Assembly (NCBI GenBank): GCA_902790465.1 | Contig: CADASF010000022.1 | Span: 1 to 32,309, forward strand | Length of the DNA: 32,309 bases | Reading direction: 5' to 3' | Origin: an uncultured bacterium | GTDB taxonomy: Bacteria; Vulcanimicrobiota; CADAWZ01 | The notes under the pieces: generated by a model | Told to the model about the DNA's origin: nothing | Database searches by the model: none | Seen by the model: only the letters and a program-made list of their open reading frames with translations | Made by a program: the position numbers and the translations under genes | In this document: piece after piece, positions 15,387 through 23,427 of the stretch | Position numbering within the stretch: position 1 is the stretch's first letter | Layout of the letters: every line of letters starts with the position of its first letter

Positions 15387-16634
15387 ATGAATATTAATGC
15401 AACTTCTTCATTTTCAAACATGCAATTACATACTGATTACAATCAGGATCAGTCTGCAGAAGTAAGAAAACATCATCATGCAAAACCAAAACATGATTCA
15501 GCTCCACAGGCAGCTGGCGATCAAGTATCACTCGGCGGAGCAGACAAAGAAGCAGGAGTTCACAAAAAATGGACTTTCCTTCACTTTGGTGCTGGTGATA
15601 ACAACCTTTCATCTCTCATCAAAGGCGATGTCGATGAGATGGAAAAAGTTGGTTCAGATGCAAATACACATGTAATTTCTATGCTCGATCAGTCTTATGG
15701 CGATTGCAAAACATATTACATCACAAAGAACAATCAATCAGGTTTACAGTCTCCTGTAGTTCAAAATCATGGTTCTCATGTCGATATGTCAGATCCAAAA
15801 ACACTTGCAAACTTCATTGCTTGGGGCGTCAAGAATTATCCTTCAGACAATGTTGCAGTTATTTTGGGAAGCCACGGTGGCGGTACAATGGGAGCTCTTG
15901 CTGATGACAAAGATGGAAACTTTATGTCTCCACAGGGTTTGAGACAAGCATTCCAAGAAGCAGAAAAAATGACAGGAAAGAAAATTGATGTACTCGGTTT
16001 TGACTGTTGTTTGATGGCAAATACAGAAGTTGCCTATGAACTTAAAGATGTTGCTAATTATATTGTTGCTTCTGAAGAATCAGAAGGTGGCAATGGTTGG
16101 CCATATCACAATGTATTGAACGAAAAAGTCCTCAAAGGACTCCAAGAAGCACTTGATACAAAGCTCACAATTACTCCTGAAGCATTTGCTAAGAAAATCG
16201 TTGGTAACGCTTCTGGTGTACAGAGTGATCTTCCAACAATGTCATCTATTGACACAAGCAAGATGGGTGATGTTGCTAAGGCTGTTGACGGATTTGCAAA
16301 TGCAATAATCGGTGCAAAAGATTTCAACACAACACTCAAAAATATCGCAAGAAGAACAGAAGATTTCAATGGCTTCAAGGATATCTATCACTTCTGTGAA
16401 CAAGTTGCAGATTCAAAAGAAATCACAGACAACAAGCTCAAAGCAGAAGCAAAGAAAGTTATGGCAGCACTTGATGATGCAATCATTGCAAATCAGAACT
16501 CATACCAGTATCCAAATGCACATGGTCTCCAAATGGAAATTCCAGCAAGTGGCAGACCTTCAAATGGATATGGCAATCTCCAATTTGCAAAAGATACACA
16601 TTGGGACGAAGCTCTCAACTCAATGCGTTCATAG
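15387..16634 (+). CDS. Clostripain-family (C11) cysteine peptidase, paralogue 1
   Basis: The 415-residue protein has the C11 catalytic pair: His163 in GSHGGG and Cys208 in FDCCLMANTEVAYEL. Blocks FGAGDNNL (67-74) and VASEESEGGNGWPY support the family. There is no Sec signal; the N-terminus MNINATSSFSNMQ, a His/Lys-rich linker, then GDQVSLGGADKE precede the domain. The other paralogue shares these segments while the linker differs. Codons here use more C-ending and CTC/ATC triplets than in the neighbours, similar to the ATP synthase genes, which suggests high expression. GGAG precedes the ATG. The role is probably protein degradation or processing; secretion would need a non-Sec route. Confidence 0.9.
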   Translation: MNINATSSFSNMQLHTDYNQDQSAEVRKHHHAKPKHDSAPQAAGDQVSLGGADKEAGVHKKWTFLHFGAGDNNLSSLIKGDVDEMEKVGSDANTHVISMLDQSYGDCKTYYITKNNQSGLQSPVVQNHGSHVDMSDPKTLANFIAWGVKNYPSDNVAVILGSHGGGTMGALADDKDGNFMSPQGLRQAFQEAEKMTGKKIDVLGFDCCLMANTEVAYELKDVANYIVASEESEGGNGWPYHNVLNEKVLKGLQEALDTKLTITPEAFAKKIVGNASGVQSDLPTMSSIDTSKMGDVAKAVDGFANAIIGAKDFNTTLKNIARRTEDFNGFKDIYHFCEQVADSKEITDNKLKAEAKKVMAALDDAIIANQNSYQYPNAHGLQMEIPASGRPSNGYGNLQFAKDTHWDEALNSMRS

Positions 16635-16651
16635 TATTTTAAATTAAAAGT

Positions 16652-16690
16652 AAAAACTGTGTCCTCATATTTTGAAGGCACAGTTTTTTT
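16652..16690 (+). terminator. Terminator between the two C11 genes
   Basis: AAAAACTGTG and CACAGTTTTT flank a loop with a CCT/AGG inner pairing and a T-run. It would separate transcription of the two paralogues or only attenuate read-through. Confidence 0.75.
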
Positions 16691-16709
16691 ATAAATATTG
16701 GAGACTTTT

Positions 16710-18002
16710 ATGAATATTAATGCAACATCTTCATTTTCAAATATACAACAAATAAACAAGGATTATTCTGCCGAACAACCTGTGGAGGTAAAGCAAGATA
16801 ACTCTTCACCACAAGCTACAGGAGATAAAGTATCTCTTGGTGGTGCTGATAAAGAAGTTGGAGTTCATAAAAAATGGACTGTTCTTCACTATGGAGCAGG
16901 AGATAATAATCTTACTGACTGTTTATTTGCTGATGTAAATGAGATGGAAACAGTTGGTTCAGATGATAATGCACATATAATTTCAATGCTGGATCAATCT
17001 TTTAGTGATTGTAAGACATATTATATTACACAGGACAAACAAGATGCTCAGGACAACACAACTAAATTACATTCTCCTGTAGTTCAAAATAATGGTTTTG
17101 ATGTCAATATGTCTGATCCTAAAGTTCTTGCTGATTTTATATCTTGGGGAATAAAGAATTATCCTTCTGAACATGTTGTGGTTATTGTTAGCAGTCATGG
17201 GGGAGGACCAGAAGGGGCTATTGCAGATGATAAAAATAGTATAGATGGTAGTTTAATGTCCCCACAAGATTTAAGGCAAGCCTTTGAAGAGGCAGAAGCA
17301 AAGACAGGAAAGAAAATTGATGTTCTCGGTTTTGATGCTTGTTTAATGGCAAATACAGAAGTTGCCTATGAACTCAAAGATGTTGCTGATTATATTGTTG
17401 CTTCAGAAGAAATAGAAGGTGGCAATGGCTGGGCTTATAATGAAATATTACAAAAATTGAAACCTTCTAAATTGAGTAGTATTGTAGGCAAACTTACAAA
17501 TAAACCAGCGGAAGTTAATCCTGAAGGTTTTGCAAAAAGTATTGTAAAGAACGCTTCTAAACATAGGTCTGATTTGTTTACACTTTCTGCTATAGATACA
17601 AGTAAAATGGATAAATTAGCTAATTCAATAGATGAATTTGCTAAATCTATTAAATCATTTACTGACGAAAAAGATTTAATTGGTAAAGAACAATTAAGTA
17701 TTATAAGACATAAGACAAAGACTTTTATGGCTAATGATTTAATAGATTTATATGATTTTTGTAAATTGGTTGTCAAAAATGATGATCTGAAAGATGATAA
17801 TTTGAAAGCTAAGGCAAAAGATGTTATAGCTAATCTTAAGGAAACAGTTATAGCCGACAGTAATTGGCGAAAACTTTATAAAAAAGCTCATGGATTGCAA
17901 ATTGAAATGCCTTTTTTAGGTAAACCTATTGAAGGATATGAAGAGCTCCAGTTTGCAAAAGATACAAATTGGGACGAAGCTCTCAACTCAATGAATTCAT
18001 AA
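16710..18002 (+). CDS. Clostripain-family (C11) cysteine peptidase, paralogue 2
   Basis: The 430-residue paralogue of the preceding gene has the catalytic His163 (SSHGGG) and Cys211 (FDACLMANTEVAYEL). The N-terminus MNINATSSFSNIQ and GDKVSLGGADKEVG are kept, and the C-terminus NWDEALNSMNS matches HWDEALNSMRS of paralogue 1. ATG 16710 is preferred because GGAG lies at 16700-16703 and it gives the same N-terminus as paralogue 1; an in-frame TTG at 16698 is too early. Codon use is plain AT-rich, unlike paralogue 1, which suggests lower expression. A terminator follows at 18027. Confidence 0.9.
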   Translation: MNINATSSFSNIQQINKDYSAEQPVEVKQDNSSPQATGDKVSLGGADKEVGVHKKWTVLHYGAGDNNLTDCLFADVNEMETVGSDDNAHIISMLDQSFSDCKTYYITQDKQDAQDNTTKLHSPVVQNNGFDVNMSDPKVLADFISWGIKNYPSEHVVVIVSSHGGGPEGAIADDKNSIDGSLMSPQDLRQAFEEAEAKTGKKIDVLGFDACLMANTEVAYELKDVADYIVASEEIEGGNGWAYNEILQKLKPSKLSSIVGKLTNKPAEVNPEGFAKSIVKNASKHRSDLFTLSAIDTSKMDKLANSIDEFAKSIKSFTDEKDLIGKEQLSIIRHKTKTFMANDLIDLYDFCKLVVKNDDLKDDNLKAKAKDVIANLKETVIADSNWRKLYKKAHGLQIEMPFLGKPIEGYEELQFAKDTNWDEALNSMNS

Positions 18003-18445: not shown

Positions 18446-20116
18446 ATGGCTACAATTCAAGAAGCTGTTAAAAAGATAATTGAATTAAGAGGTTTGGAAA
18501 TATTTAAAAATTCTAAACAGTTTTTTGCATCAATCGGTGATTTTGCACCAGAATATCCAAAAGAATTAAGGATGATCAGAAATAATTTTGATGATAAGTT
18601 GTTGGAATTGTTTATAGATGATAGCAAAAAGGTTCGTCACAGAGTGAGATTAATAAAAGATCATCTTGAAGATTTTGGTTTTTCAGATGATAAGGTTTAT
18701 TTTTTCCTTGAAGCTTTTGGAATTCCACTTGGTTGGGAACAAGAAATATTGGAGCTAAAAGCTGATTCTCCAATTCAGGCTCCAAGTTTTAGTCAGCAAC
18801 CTCAAAAACAAAATCAAGTAAATGCAAATGTTACAGATATTTCATTGAGTGCAGATATTTTGAAACAATGGGGTTTCCAAGATAAAAATTCAATACCAGA
18901 TGTTCTCAATATTCCTTCAACATATAGATCGCCATTTGGTACAATGTATAGAATAATAAAAGTCGATGATGAAGTATTTAAGGATTGTGATAAATTACAA
19001 GCTGTTACAATACCTGATACAGTAACAGAGATTGGAAATAGTGCCTTCGAAAATTGTAGGTCTTTGAAAAAAATAAATATATCTGCAAGTATAAATAAAA
19101 TAGGCGATAGAGCATTTACAAATTGTAAATCATTAGATAGTATAACCCTTTCAAATGATGTAATAGAAATAGGAAAAAGTGCATTTGGTGGTTGTTCTTC
19201 ATTGACGACTGTAACAATTCCAAATAGGGTTACAAAAATATCAGAAGGATTATTTGGCAAGTGCAAATCTCTTACAAATGTAATTATTCCAAATGGAGTT
19301 ACAGAGATAGGTGATAAATCATTTGCAGGCTGTGAATCTCTTAATGGTGTAATTATTCCAAAGACAGTTACAAAAATAGGAAATCGTGCATTTGTAAATT
19401 GTAAAAATCTTGATATTTTTGTTATTCCAAATTCTGTAACAAATGTTGGGACAGAAGTTTTTGGCGGTTGTTTAAAATTACAAACATTTACACTTCCGAC
19501 ACGGTTTACAATATTTAAAGACGATGTAAATAAACAGATCGACTTGTCAACAAATGTAAATAATCCTTTTAAGACAGCAAAAGTAGGCGATTATGTCAAA
19601 TTTGGTAGTTACCCTCAGACTTCAAGTGGTGGAGTTCAACCTATAGAGTGGCAGGTATTGTCAATAGAAAATAATAAAATGCTTGTTATTTCTCGTTATG
19701 GTCTTGATGCAAGGCGTTTTGATGGCAATTCAAGTAATTGGGCAAATAGTGAAATTCGTAAGTGGTTGAATGGTGAATTTTACAATAAAGCTTTTACAGA
19801 TCAAGAAAAGAAATCTATAAAATCTTTAAATCTTTCAGATGTAGGCACGACTGATAATGTGTTTTTGTTGAGTGAAGAAGAATCAGAGAAATATTTTGCT
19901 AATTATACTGCGAGACAATGTAAGGCTACTGATTATGCTAAAAATAATGGTGCTTGGGTGAGTAGTAGTAATGGTTATTGTTATTGGTGGCTTCGTTCTC
20001 CTTATCCTGATATTCGCAATAATGTCTATTTTGTCTATGATGATGGTTCTATCTACTACAGCAATGTTATCGATTTTAGCGGTGTTGTGCGGCTCGCTTT
20101 GTGGGTAAATCTTTAA
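18446..20116 (+). CDS. DGR target protein: BspA-like repeats plus DUF6273-type domain
   Basis: The 556-residue protein has an N-terminal helical domain of about 100 residues (unknown, ends near GIPLGWEQEILEL), a Gln-rich linker and about seven BspA-like leucine-rich repeats (residues about 170-350; units like VTIPDTVTEIGNSAFENC). The C-terminal domain (from about residue 376) carries VKFGSYPQ, IEWQVLSIENNKMLVIS and WWLRSP, as in DUF6273/C-type-lectin-like folds. Residues 515-556 are the variable repeat. No signal peptide is seen. ATG 18446 follows GGGAGA by 5 nt; an extension to 18407 has no support. The diversified C-terminus presumably binds varied ligands, while the repeats may present it, but the partner and location are unknown. 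Confidence 0.9.
   Translation: MATIQEAVKKIIELRGLEIFKNSKQFFASIGDFAPEYPKELRMIRNNFDDKLLELFIDDSKKVRHRVRLIKDHLEDFGFSDDKVYFFLEAFGIPLGWEQEILELKADSPIQAPSFSQQPQKQNQVNANVTDISLSADILKQWGFQDKNSIPDVLNIPSTYRSPFGTMYRIIKVDDEVFKDCDKLQAVTIPDTVTEIGNSAFENCRSLKKINISASINKIGDRAFTNCKSLDSITLSNDVIEIGKSAFGGCSSLTTVTIPNRVTKISEGLFGKCKSLTNVIIPNGVTEIGDKSFAGCESLNGVIIPKTVTKIGNRAFVNCKNLDIFVIPNSVTNVGTEVFGGCLKLQTFTLPTRFTIFKDDVNKQIDLSTNVNNPFKTAKVGDYVKFGSYPQTSSGGVQPIEWQVLSIENNKMLVISRYGLDARRFDGNSSNWANSEIRKWLNGEFYNKAFTDQEKKSIKSLNLSDVGTTDNVFLLSEEESEKYFANYTARQCKATDYAKNNGAWVSSSNGYCYWWLRSPYPDIRNNVYFVYDDGSIYYSNVIDFSGVVRLALWVNL
19988..20116 (+). repeat. DGR variable repeat (VR)
   Basis: 129 nt encoding the last 42 residues of the target. 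Against the template at 20891-21019, 17 of 18 differences before the GGTGTTGTGCGGCTCGCTTT tract are at template adenines (to T, G or C). Thirteen of the 16 Asn codons in that part are changed. Both repeats share that GC-richer tract, a likely initiation-of-mutagenic-homing site. Four further differences lie 3' of it (TATATT against TGGGTA), as expected for IMH versus IMH*. Confidence 0.93.
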
Positions 20117-20168
20117 TCTTTTAAATCAAGCTCCTTAATTTTTTTTAAATTAATGAGAAAAAAAATTG

Positions 20169-20210
20169 CGTTAGGTGCCAATCTTGCGCCTTTAGGCGCT
20201 TAATCTTAAA
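20169..20210 (+). repeat. Hairpin block downstream of VR
   Basis: CGTTAGGTGCCAATC, a short variable part and CCTTTAGGCGCTTAATCT recur, almost the same, at 21029-21067 after the template. The duplication that made the template therefore reaches beyond the VR, or the block is a second shared DGR signal. Confidence 0.65.
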
Positions 20211-20274
20211 TAATTATAATTTGGTTTAGGATTAATTTGTTTGCGAGTTGATTTAAAAAAATAAGTAAATAAGA

Positions 20275-20353
20275 AGTTGCAATAAACTATCCAATATAGT
20301 CTGTATATTGCCACTTTGTCATTGCGAGAGAGCTGTGCGACCGTGGCAATCTC
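20275..20353. repeat. GTCATTGCGAG dispersed repeat copy
   Basis: About 79 bp, closely similar to 18123-18200 (GTTGCAATAAACTATCCAAT, then TGTCATTGCGAGAGAGCTG and GACCGTGGCAATCTC). ATTGC and GCAAT form the outer arms of an imperfect inverted repeat. Confidence 0.65.
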
Positions 20354-20469
20354 AAATGCTTAATTTAAATTTATTAATTTATAATTTGCTTTAGGCAGTA
20401 ATTTGAAAAGGTTATTTTTGACTATTATTTTTTGTTTCCGGCCTTTGGCCGGTCGATTTTATTGAAAAA

Positions 20470-20859
20470 ATGAGTGATAAAACATCGGAACTTGCTGTTA
20501 TAACAAAGGCAAAAGACCTTTGTTCTTATATTATGACTGTTACTCAAAAATCTCCGAAGCACTTTAGATATTCGTTTGTCAGCCGTATGCAAAATATTGC
20601 CCTTTCAATAATAGAGAATCTTTACAGGGCAAATGACATATTTCTAAAAAAAGGCGACAGTATATTGATTTCTCATAGACGTAATAAGCAGAGAGAGGTA
20701 ATGACTGATTTGCGTATTCTTGGCTATTTTTCACTGTTGGCTATGGAGCAGAAATGTATTTTGCCGAAACAGTATCAAATTATTTCAGAAATGATAGCCG
20801 ATTGTGTCAATTTGCTTGTTGCGTGGGTCGCAAGTGATAAAAGAAGATTACAGCCTTAA
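20470..20859 (+). CDS. Avd-like four-helix-bundle protein of a DGR
   Basis: The 129-residue protein matches the DGR accessory variability determinant (Avd) family in pattern: four amphipathic helices with SPKHFRYSFVSRMQNIAL (about residues 28-45), IIENLYRANDIFL, LRILGYFSLLAMEQ and a basic end (WVASDKRRLQP). In known DGRs Avd forms a pentamer that binds the reverse transcriptase and template RNA. It lies directly before the template repeat, as in many DGRs. There is no clear Shine-Dalgarno site before ATG 20470, only a strong hairpin. It has no stop or frameshift, which argues against a long-dead cassette. Confidence 0.85.
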   Translation: MSDKTSELAVITKAKDLCSYIMTVTQKSPKHFRYSFVSRMQNIALSIIENLYRANDIFLKKGDSILISHRRNKQREVMTDLRILGYFSLLAMEQKCILPKQYQIISEMIADCVNLLVAWVASDKRRLQP

Positions 20860-20890
20860 TTTTAGGCTGTTAATTAGGGATCTGATTGAA

Positions 20891-21019
20891 TGGCTTCGTT
20901 CTCCTAATCCTAATAATGACAATAATGTCTATAATGTCAATAATGATGGTAATATCAACTACAACAATGTTAACAATAATAACGGTGTTGTGCGGCTCGC
21001 TTTGTATATTAATCTTTAA
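20891..21019 (+). repeat. DGR template repeat (TR)
   Basis: 129 nt aligned without gaps to the VR at 19988-20116. Read in the same frame it holds 16 AAT/AAC codons between TGGCTTCGTTCTCCT and the shared GGTGTTGTGCGG tract, with 37 adenines in that span. AAY codons allow many residues without making stop codons. The open frame across it is not a gene. It starts 31 bp after avd. Confidence 0.93.
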
Positions 21020-21022
21020 TCA

Positions 21023-21067
21023 GGCACCGTTAGGTGCCAATCAGTGCCTTTAGGTGCTTAATCTAAA
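21023..21067 (+). repeat. Hairpin block downstream of TR
   Basis: A perfect GGCACC-GTTA-GGTGCC hairpin (21023-21038) and a GTGCC-TTTA-GGTGC stem follow the template. From 21029 it matches the block at 20169-20210. It may be part of the template RNA structure. Confidence 0.6.
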
Positions 21068-21116
21068 GAAATAAAAAGTTAATTCTTTCGAATAATTTAA
21101 CAGAATAAATAAAAAA

Positions 21117-21155
21117 GGCTCTTACAGAAAATAATTTTGCAAGAGTCTCTTTTTA
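21117..21155 (+). terminator. Terminator of the avd-TR transcript
   Basis: GGCTCTTACA pairs with TGCAAGAGTC (one mismatch, one G:U), followed by a T-rich tract. It closes the avd-TR unit about 100 bp after the template. Confidence 0.7.
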
Positions 21156-21217: not shown

Positions 21218-21361
21218 GGGGCTGTGAAAAAAAAGTAAATAGAGGCGATGTCATTGCGAGGGAGCTATGCGACCGTGGCAATCTCAGGCACTTTTTTATT
21301 AACTAACAAAACGAGTTAATTTACGAAAATTATATAAAAAAATACTTTTTTTCACAGCCCC
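21218..21361. mobile_element. MITE-like repeat, best copy
   Basis: A 144-bp non-coding element with near-perfect terminal inverted repeats: GGGGCTGTGAAAAAAAAGTA at the left and TACTTTTTTTCACAGCCCC at the right. Inside are the GTCATTGCGAG...GGCAATCTC module and TTATTAACTAAC with ACGAGTTAATTTACG. Copy 1 at 372-512 is closely similar. The right end is 11 bp from the start codon of the next gene, so the element forms its immediate leader. Confidence 0.7.
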
Positions 21362-21372
21362 AAAAAATATAT

Positions 21373-22992
21373 ATGCAAAATTTGCCAATAGGTATTCAAA
21401 ATTTTGAAAATATTCGTCTAAAGAATTACCTTTATGTTGATAAAACAAAACAAATATTGAATTTAATAGAAAAAGGGGAATGTTATTTTTTATCTCGTCC
21501 TCGCCGTTTTGGAAAATCTCTTACTTTATCAACATTAGAGGCAATGTTTCAAGGTAAAGCAGAACTATTCAAAGGTCTTTATGCCGAGGAATGGGTAAAA
21601 GAGCAAACAAAAAATCCAAATCCAGTTATTAAATTGGATATGAGTGGCTTAGGAAATTATGAAAATAAAAAAGAGTTAAATGATTCTATTATAAATTATT
21701 TGGAAAATTATATATTTTTAAATGATTTAAATATATCTTCAGAAACAGATGCTTCTAAAATGTTGTTTAATATAATAATAAGATTATATAAGCAATTTGG
21801 AAAAGTTGTTGTTCTTATTGATGAATATGATAAACCAATGACTGACAACTTAAACAATTTAGAAAAAGCAGAAGAAATGCGAGAAACTCTTTCTAAATTT
21901 TATATTGTTGTAAAGAATTGTAGTGATTATTTGCGTTTTGTAATGGTAACAGGTGTATCAAAATTTAGCAAAGTAGGTTTATTGTCAGGGGTAAATAATT
22001 TAAAAGATATATCTATGGACGAAAAATATGGTGATATAGTTGGCTATACTCAACAAGAGCTTGAAGATAATTTTGTTGAATGGATTGAAAATACAAGTAA
22101 AAAATTATCTATGAGTAAAAAAGAACTTTTGGATAAAATAAAAGAATTTTATGATGGTTTTTCATTTGATGGCAAAACACGAGTATATAATCCATTCTCA
22201 GTATTAAATTTCTTTAAAAAAAGTGATTTTAGCAATTATTGGTATGTTTCAGACTTTTTATTTTCTCCTTCGAAGAAGGAGCTAAATGCACCTTCTTTTC
22301 TTCTCAATTATTTACAAAATCATCGTATTAAAAATCCAGATAAATATGATGGGATAACAGTATCTAAAACTTTTGCAGATAAACGAGAAATAGAAAGTGC
22401 GAGTGTAGAGAGTTTTTTATTTCAAGCTGGTTATTTGACAATAAAAAAGAAATTGCTAAATGAATTTGTACTTGGTTATCCAAACGAAGAAGTTCGCAGT
22501 TCTTTAGCCGATATGTATCTTGATGATATTTATCATATTGAAGGCTATACTACACTTGGCAATGAGATTTGGAAAGCATTAGAAGATGACAACATAGAAA
22601 ATTTAGTAAAATCATTTAATTTGGCAATTTCAGGAATTCCTTATGAAGACTTTGAAAAGGACAAATCAGCTCCTTCGAAAGAAGGAGAAAAAAAATGTGA
22701 ATATTTTTATCGTTCAATGTTTGTGATGTTGCTTCGTGGTGCAGGTGTAATATATTTTGCCGAAGTACACACATTCAAAGGTCGTTCAGATGTCGTTATA
22801 GTTTTTAAAAATAAAGTAGTAGTTATTGAATTTAAGTTGGCAAAAAATTCATCAGAAGTAGAGAAGAAGAGAAAAGAAGGCGAAGAACAGATAAAATCGA
22901 GAGATTATTCTTCCGCCTATAAAGGCAGTAATTTAAAGGTTATTAATCTCGTCTTAGTCGCAGATGATGAAAAACGACAAATTGTTATTTAG
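21373..22992 (+). CDS. AAA-ATPase-like protein with PD-(D/E)XK nuclease-like domain
   Basis: The 539-residue protein belongs to the AAA-ATPase_like (PF09820) type joined to a C-terminal PD-(D/E)XK (PF08011-like) domain. The start GIQNFENIRLKNYLYVDKT is typical. The P-loop variant is SRPRRFGKS (41-49) and Walker B is VVVLIDEYDKP with Asp150 and Glu151. The nuclease-like core has Asp473, Glu486 and Lys488 (SDVVIVF ... VVVIEFKL). Such genes are numerous in gut and oral bacteria; their role is unproven and may involve mobile elements or defence. There is no Shine-Dalgarno site, since the MITE-like repeat ends 11 bp before the ATG. Confidence 0.88.
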   Translation: MQNLPIGIQNFENIRLKNYLYVDKTKQILNLIEKGECYFLSRPRRFGKSLTLSTLEAMFQGKAELFKGLYAEEWVKEQTKNPNPVIKLDMSGLGNYENKKELNDSIINYLENYIFLNDLNISSETDASKMLFNIIIRLYKQFGKVVVLIDEYDKPMTDNLNNLEKAEEMRETLSKFYIVVKNCSDYLRFVMVTGVSKFSKVGLLSGVNNLKDISMDEKYGDIVGYTQQELEDNFVEWIENTSKKLSMSKKELLDKIKEFYDGFSFDGKTRVYNPFSVLNFFKKSDFSNYWYVSDFLFSPSKKELNAPSFLLNYLQNHRIKNPDKYDGITVSKTFADKREIESASVESFLFQAGYLTIKKKLLNEFVLGYPNEEVRSSLADMYLDDIYHIEGYTTLGNEIWKALEDDNIENLVKSFNLAISGIPYEDFEKDKSAPSKEGEKKCEYFYRSMFVMLLRGAGVIYFAEVHTFKGRSDVVIVFKNKVVVIEFKLAKNSSEVEKKRKEGEEQIKSRDYSSAYKGSNLKVINLVLVADDEKRQIVI

Positions 22993-23082: not shown

Positions 23083-23427
23083 TTAGAAGTAAATCTTTTT
23101 GGCTTTTACATGGATACTCATTGTATATCCACCTCTTACTCTGATTATCTGATCTTTTTTGAATAATCTCCAAGCCTCATCATAAGATATTACCTTATTG
23201 TCTTTTGAAAAAACAGTGTTGTCATCTATTTCTACATATTGTACATTTTTATTGCCTTTTTCATGAACTCTTACTTGGAGTCTGTTTTTCTTGCGTTCAA
23301 CTTCTACAATTTTCACTCTCAAATTTACAAGAATAATCTGGGAATTGGCTGTTTTAAATGTTGACAATACAAAACAGAATACCATTAATGGAATTATAAA
23401 TAAAGCAATATTTTTATAATTTTTCAT
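23083..23427 (-). CDS. Small exported protein of unknown function
   Basis: The 114-residue product has a short basic start (MKNYKN), a hydrophobic segment (residues 8-22) and probable signal cleavage near residue 30 (TANSQ). The mature part is about 85 residues with alternating hydrophobic and basic residues (VKIVEVERKKNRLQVRV, YVEIDDNTVFS, IIRVRGGYT) like a small beta-barrel/OB-type domain such as DUF5666-like proteins. That likeness is weak. AGGAG precedes the start and a good promoter lies upstream. Confidence 0.7.
   Translation of the reverse strand: MKNYKNIALFIIPLMVFCFVLSTFKTANSQIILVNLRVKIVEVERKKNRLQVRVHEKGNKNVQYVEIDDNTVFSKDNKVISYDEAWRLFKKDQIIRVRGGYTMSIHVKAKKIYF

Follow-up and report, generated by a model that had tools for sequence, protein, structure and literature searches.

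The window, the whole stretch of DNA that was analyzed (32,309 nt), is the complete contig C22 of genome G000, an assembly of 3.05 Mb in 121 contigs that is 97.8% complete. It contains the template repeat (TR), a variable repeat (VR) and the Avd gene of a diversity-generating retroelement (DGR), a kind of system by which the tips of binding proteins are rewritten, followed by a MITE-like element and an AAA-ATPase gene. These features are listed below with their coordinates in the window.

18446 to 20116, plus strand: target gene in cis, with BspA-type LRR_5 repeats and a C-terminal DUF6273 domain (open frame; Pfam LRR_5 E=2.5e-55, DUF6273 E=5.8e-22)
19988 to 20116, plus strand: VR, the 3' end of the target gene including its stop codon (ungapped alignment with the TR)
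20080 to 20099, plus strand: IMH-like tract of the VR, GGTGTTGTGCGGCTCGCTTT, identical to that of the TR (alignment; the end point is where TR/VR homology ends in relatives)
20186 to 20199, plus strand: hairpin GCGCC-TTTA-GGCGC 3' of the cis VR, a possible target hairpin (4-nt loop, not phage GRNA; further away than usual)
20470 to 20859, plus strand: Avd gene of 129 aa, the sole copy in the genome (open frame, family profiles, homologues)
20865 to 20890, plus strand: 5' motif of the template RNA, GGCTGTTAATTAGGGATCTGATTGAA, common to DGRs that bear a reverse transcriptase (RT) (alignment A3)
20891 to 21019, plus strand: TR, made of a template part (20891-21002, with the IMH-like tract at 20983-21002) and then 17 nt of VR-gene type
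21003 to 21076, plus strand: VR-gene-like 3' flank replacing the spacer (matches the flank of the VR gene at C84:6381, L007, with 88% over 43 nt and 89% over 35 nt)
21023 to 21038, plus strand: hairpin GGCACC-GTTA-GGTGCC in the 3' flank of the TR (an identical hairpin lies in the flank of C84:6381)
21218 to 21361, no strand assigned: MITE-like element with 16-nt perfect terminal inverted repeats, not part of the DGR (sequence comparison)
21373 to 22992, plus strand: AAA-ATPase_like and PDDEXK_9 gene at the place expected for the RT, not part of the DGR (domain search)

The initial annotation, made from the sequence alone, had described an intact Avd-like gene between VR and TR, and a MITE-like element and an AAA-ATPase gene after the TR. 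The element and the ATPase gene are as described, and the Avd gene is an open frame whose best matches include Avd families (NCBIfam NF033474, E=2.6e-14; Pfam bAvd, E=2.6e-8), with scores that lie below the curated cut-offs in both cases and that are equaled by an RT-linked relative. Relatives of this Avd in the GTDB genome collection come from Firmicutes, Actinobacteria and Betaproteobacteria and are 47-64% identical over full-length matches; with this identity to RT-linked Avds, the accessory gene of a complete DGR is present.

The MITE-like element has the ends GGGGCTGTGAAAAAAA, and copies that are 93-94% alike were found at 374-503 and after the VR genes L017 and L059, in both species. Segment 18003-23082, comprising the target gene, Avd, TR and AAA-ATPase, is an insert. 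Its uninterrupted site is found in G002, where the 114-aa gene located in the window at 23083-23427 directly adjoins a clostripain-like gene. Two adjacent and mutually similar clostripain-like (C11 peptidase) genes, assigned to this family by eye, lie 5' of the insert (15387-18002). We also looked for an intact DGR copy at the syntenic place of the sister genomes: G002 is without the insert, and G001 has other genes there.

Adenine-limited differences and dispersed target genes

TR and cis VR align gap-free over 129 nt with 22 mismatches. Within the first 92 nt, 5' of the GGTGTTGTGCGG tract, 17 of 18 mismatches fall at TR adenines and the remaining one is a change of G to C (P=2e-6 for at least 17 of 18 at adenines, the TR having 37 A in these 92 nt). 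Translation of the alignment showed that 13 of the 16 Asn codons of the TR are altered in the VR. Our realignment and translation reproduce the gap-free pair, its adenine count and the proportion of changed Asn codons that had been reported earlier. When five VRs are pooled, 85 of 88 mismatches are at TR adenines (P=9e-30). The original scoring of the VRs favors adenine mismatches, so the alignments were rerun with uniform scoring; the pattern holds and the counts per VR are nearly unchanged. The locus thus carries a TR/VR pair with the adenine-limited differences of a DGR. One could argue that the pattern is due to chance or to ordinary divergence of paralogs, with no DGR involved, as DUF6273 is a large paralogous family and homology alone predicts many VR-like matches; but the adenine restriction over the five VRs, the position of the AAY-rich repeat directly after the Avd gene and outside the target genes, and the alignment of the TR with the TRs of RT-bearing DGRs leave this reading a negligible probability, and the adenine pattern, together with the homologous DGR cassettes, practically refutes it.

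The initial annotation had envisaged additional VRs in other parts of the genome, and these turned out to be many. The TR DNA matches 27 places in G000. For the DUF6273 domain the count is 44, in part fragments of one gene, giving about 40 target genes. Apart from 20891-21019, all fully readable places matching the TR are located at ends of target-gene open frames, so one TR is known in the genome. The targets have LRR-DUF6273, Sel1-DUF6273 or Big_2-DUF6273 architectures, or DUF6273 with unnamed N-termini, and some of them start with lipoprotein-like signal sequences (read by eye). G001, a sister species of the same genus, has 23 DUF6273 matches; a search of this genome for Avd and RT found neither.

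Over 48-50 sites, L004 and L005 show no non-adenine mismatch to the TR. There is 1 each in L003 and in the cis VR, and 1 in 55 sites in L059, from the sister species, while each of these five VRs presents 11-21 adenine mismatches. Since the distant VRs agree with the TR at nearly all non-adenine sites, it is well supported that this TR or a near-identical one wrote distant genes in trans, at least L003-L005 and L059. Five VRs (L003, L004, L005, L006 and L063) are without 9 nt of the TR near the 5' end of the repeat, which suggests that the template was a shorter (earlier or second) allele, or that rewriting took place only 3' of the missing stretch. The remaining VRs, with 4-37% non-adenine mismatches, look like products of older templates, or of drift. 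The VR set is in this sense a record of earlier template versions.

We also compared orthologs from the two species. In the pair L059/L017 the VR differs by 28.6%, the upstream sequence by 7.6% and the downstream sequence at 0 of 150 positions; the excess in the VR indicates that one of them was rewritten (or exchanged) after the species parted. In the pairs L062/L008 and L069/L084 the VR core is nearly unchanged between species. The DGR was thus at work within the time span of the genus, and it acted on genes at a distance from the TR. Regarding the recent activity suggested in the initial annotation, past writing in trans is well supported, and present activity is hypothetical. Two side observations concern these orthologs. 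The identity of the 150 nt 3' of the VR in L059 and L017, next to gene bodies that are 7.6% apart, hints at an exchange of target genes. L008 (C84:11779-11910) and L062 (G001) are identical in the VR core and differ in the IMH end, where 7 sites of the final ~32 nt or so are changed; this gives the impression of an alteration in the very target site.

The missing enzyme and the 3' end of the template

That there is no RT in cis, as the initial annotation had it, is true of the window and of the assembled genome as well. A PF00078 profile search of G000 gave no RT, and the same search finds the controls and the RTs of 19 of 98 relatives. We then used an RT profile (A1) of 15 RTs found beside Avd relatives, with controls at 1e-162 and 1e-192 and a match of 6e-137 in a same-phylum genome; it gave no RT in G000-G004 at E<=10. 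By both profile searches, then, this 97.8% complete assembly yields no DGR-type RT. Candidate RT fragments in the window (tblastn) were chance-level matches, with the sole exception of the Avd part of a fused Avd-RT frame. A search of viral contigs gave only 29%-identical Avds and no match to the 20-nt IMH tract. The same-phylum DGR of G024 has both RT and spacer, and its 2.7 kb hold no close Avd or TR.

RT-bearing relatives present the order Avd, TR, about 200 nt of partly conserved spacer RNA (Sp) and RT. A covariance model of this spacer (R1) recovers six held-out DGRs (E<=7e-8) and the same-phylum DGR (1e-13). Searching the window and G000 with R1, we found no spacer, the other element that a complete DGR would have. 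In the system studied, the spacer serves to recruit bRT-Avd and also contains the adenine from which cDNA synthesis is primed (PMC12875486). Because Sp has this priming role, an RT supplied in trans should not by itself revive a spacer-less TR, and we expect that a TR without Sp should be silent even given a foreign RT. The initial annotation had suggested a trans-acting RT; both the negative genome-wide search and the lack of spacer RNA at the TR weaken that suggestion.

The 5' side of the TR is as in the template RNA of RT-bearing relatives. In these relatives TR/VR homology ends at or near CCCGC[AT]TT, with unlike flanks beyond it, that of the TR being followed by the spacer. In the window, homology extends past CCCGC[AT]TT through the stop codon, and the last 17 nt of the TR together with the downstream flank are of the VR-gene 3' end type, not of the TR type, a feature that the initial annotation had missed. 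This flank resembles those of VR genes, C84:6381 being the best match. GC-rich hairpins with 4-nt loops follow about ten of 47 VRs as well as the TR, and their loops (GTTA, TTTA, CTTG and TTTT) misfit GRNA. Phage BPP-1 has such a hairpin on the VR side, past the end of TR/VR homology (PMC3240598). Among the relatives, the Firmicutes DGR L111 (4460-4700) has in its TR a TAA triplet, AACTAAACA, that was lost from the VR through adenine changes.

Probable deletion of the spacer and RT, and its alternatives

With RT and spacer absent, the locus does not qualify as a complete DGR; we class it as DGR-derived and as formerly DGR-like in its working. We consider it, with a probability of roughly 0.6, to be the remnant of an Avd-type DGR whose RT and Sp were deleted, probably by homologous recombination between TR and a VR. 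A recent breakdown of the system is more probable than its operation from elsewhere. Until RT and Sp were lost, the TR, or alleles close to it, would have written adenine-mutated copies into dispersed LRR-DUF6273 genes in trans, and a target gene with its VR would have lain 3' of the RT in the same orientation. The deletion model needs a VR 3' of the RT on the same strand, an arrangement that is found in relatives L106, L110, L111 and L120. In the simplest reading, a single crossover at the IMH between the TR and a VR so placed would have produced the chimera and removed Sp and RT, which would leave the locus incapable of cDNA synthesis. The few non-adenine differences between TR and VRs suggest that the loss, if real, was recent. 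The TR is still very close to the VRs it wrote, which is what one would see with an active template, and this counts against deletion; so does the fact that four TR-matching VRs are without 9 nt of the TR, as another allele may have been the template. Finally, the assembly, although 97.8% complete, is fragmented and has contigs that end inside DUF6273 genes, which leaves room for a misjoin and for the loss of an Sp-RT contig.

The main alternative to deletion is such an unassembled or misjoined Sp-RT contig. Living cells would then hold a complete and active DGR, either with Sp and RT on a short unbinned contig and the TR misjoined to a VR flank, or as a second complete copy elsewhere. The break of contigs inside DUF6273 genes in both G000 and G001, the up to about 28 identical nt that the TR and the VR genes share at the IMH, the 0-1 non-adenine differences between the TR and several VRs, and the VR rewritten since the two species parted are all consistent with it. 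However, the contig continues for more than 11 kb on both sides of the TR, the 3.05 Mb yielded no RT, spacer, second TR or second Avd, and the sister genome (only 89% complete) gave no RT either. On balance, we regard this alternative as possible but rather unlikely.

A much less probable explanation is an RT that acts in trans on the TR from a mobile element or from a different cell lineage. In its favor are the intactness of TR and Avd, the past writing of distant VRs in trans and the trans activity inferred in Thiohalocapsa PB-PSB1 (PMC10907252), but here the TR is without the spacer RNA used in recruitment and priming (PMC12875486), and the viral contigs have neither a close Avd nor the IMH tract. 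We find it more improbable still that TR, Avd and dozens of DUF6273 targets are kept and used by a lineage that has no DGR RT of its own, the spacer-less TR being copied by an unknown or foreign enzyme.

In order to contextualize the locus, we compared it with known systems. The Avd-type DGRs of Firmicutes and other gut bacteria (L102-L128, e.g. DCHY01000046.1) are alike in Avd (47-64% identical), in the 5' motif of the template RNA, in a homologous AAY-rich TR and in a VR of the W-L-R-S ... V-R-P-A-L type. In those DGRs the TR is followed by about 200 nt of Sp and the RT, whereas the window has neither and its TR passes into a VR-gene flank. Treponema denticola isolates without the DGR core (PMC4891356) resemble the present case in that targets with adenine-limited VRs persist after loss of the RT, and this species likewise has many remote targets, two to seven per isolate; in those isolates RT and TR are both gone, while here TR and Avd are retained. 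Thiohalocapsa PB-PSB1 (PMC10907252) is alike in its incomplete loci, its inferred trans diversification and its nearby MITE-like elements, but has intact-RT loci in the same genome, of which we found none. The remote variable proteins of cyanobacteria (PMC7517822) are also paralogous targets far from a DGR and linked to it by TR identity; those DGRs encode an RT, and the proteins they target have CLec domains combined with other partners. The unusual feature of the present locus is that TR and Avd are retained with RT and Sp gone, next to a chimera that hints at the route and in a genome with a large target family.

Surveys that begin with the RT easily miss such RT-less loci. If the deletion reading is right, the locus illustrates a route by which a DGR can bring about its own loss: TR and VR are nearly identical at the IMH, which makes this a site of recombination. 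Recombination would remove the enzyme, leave the template and its helper, and freeze the repertoire already written in many genes.
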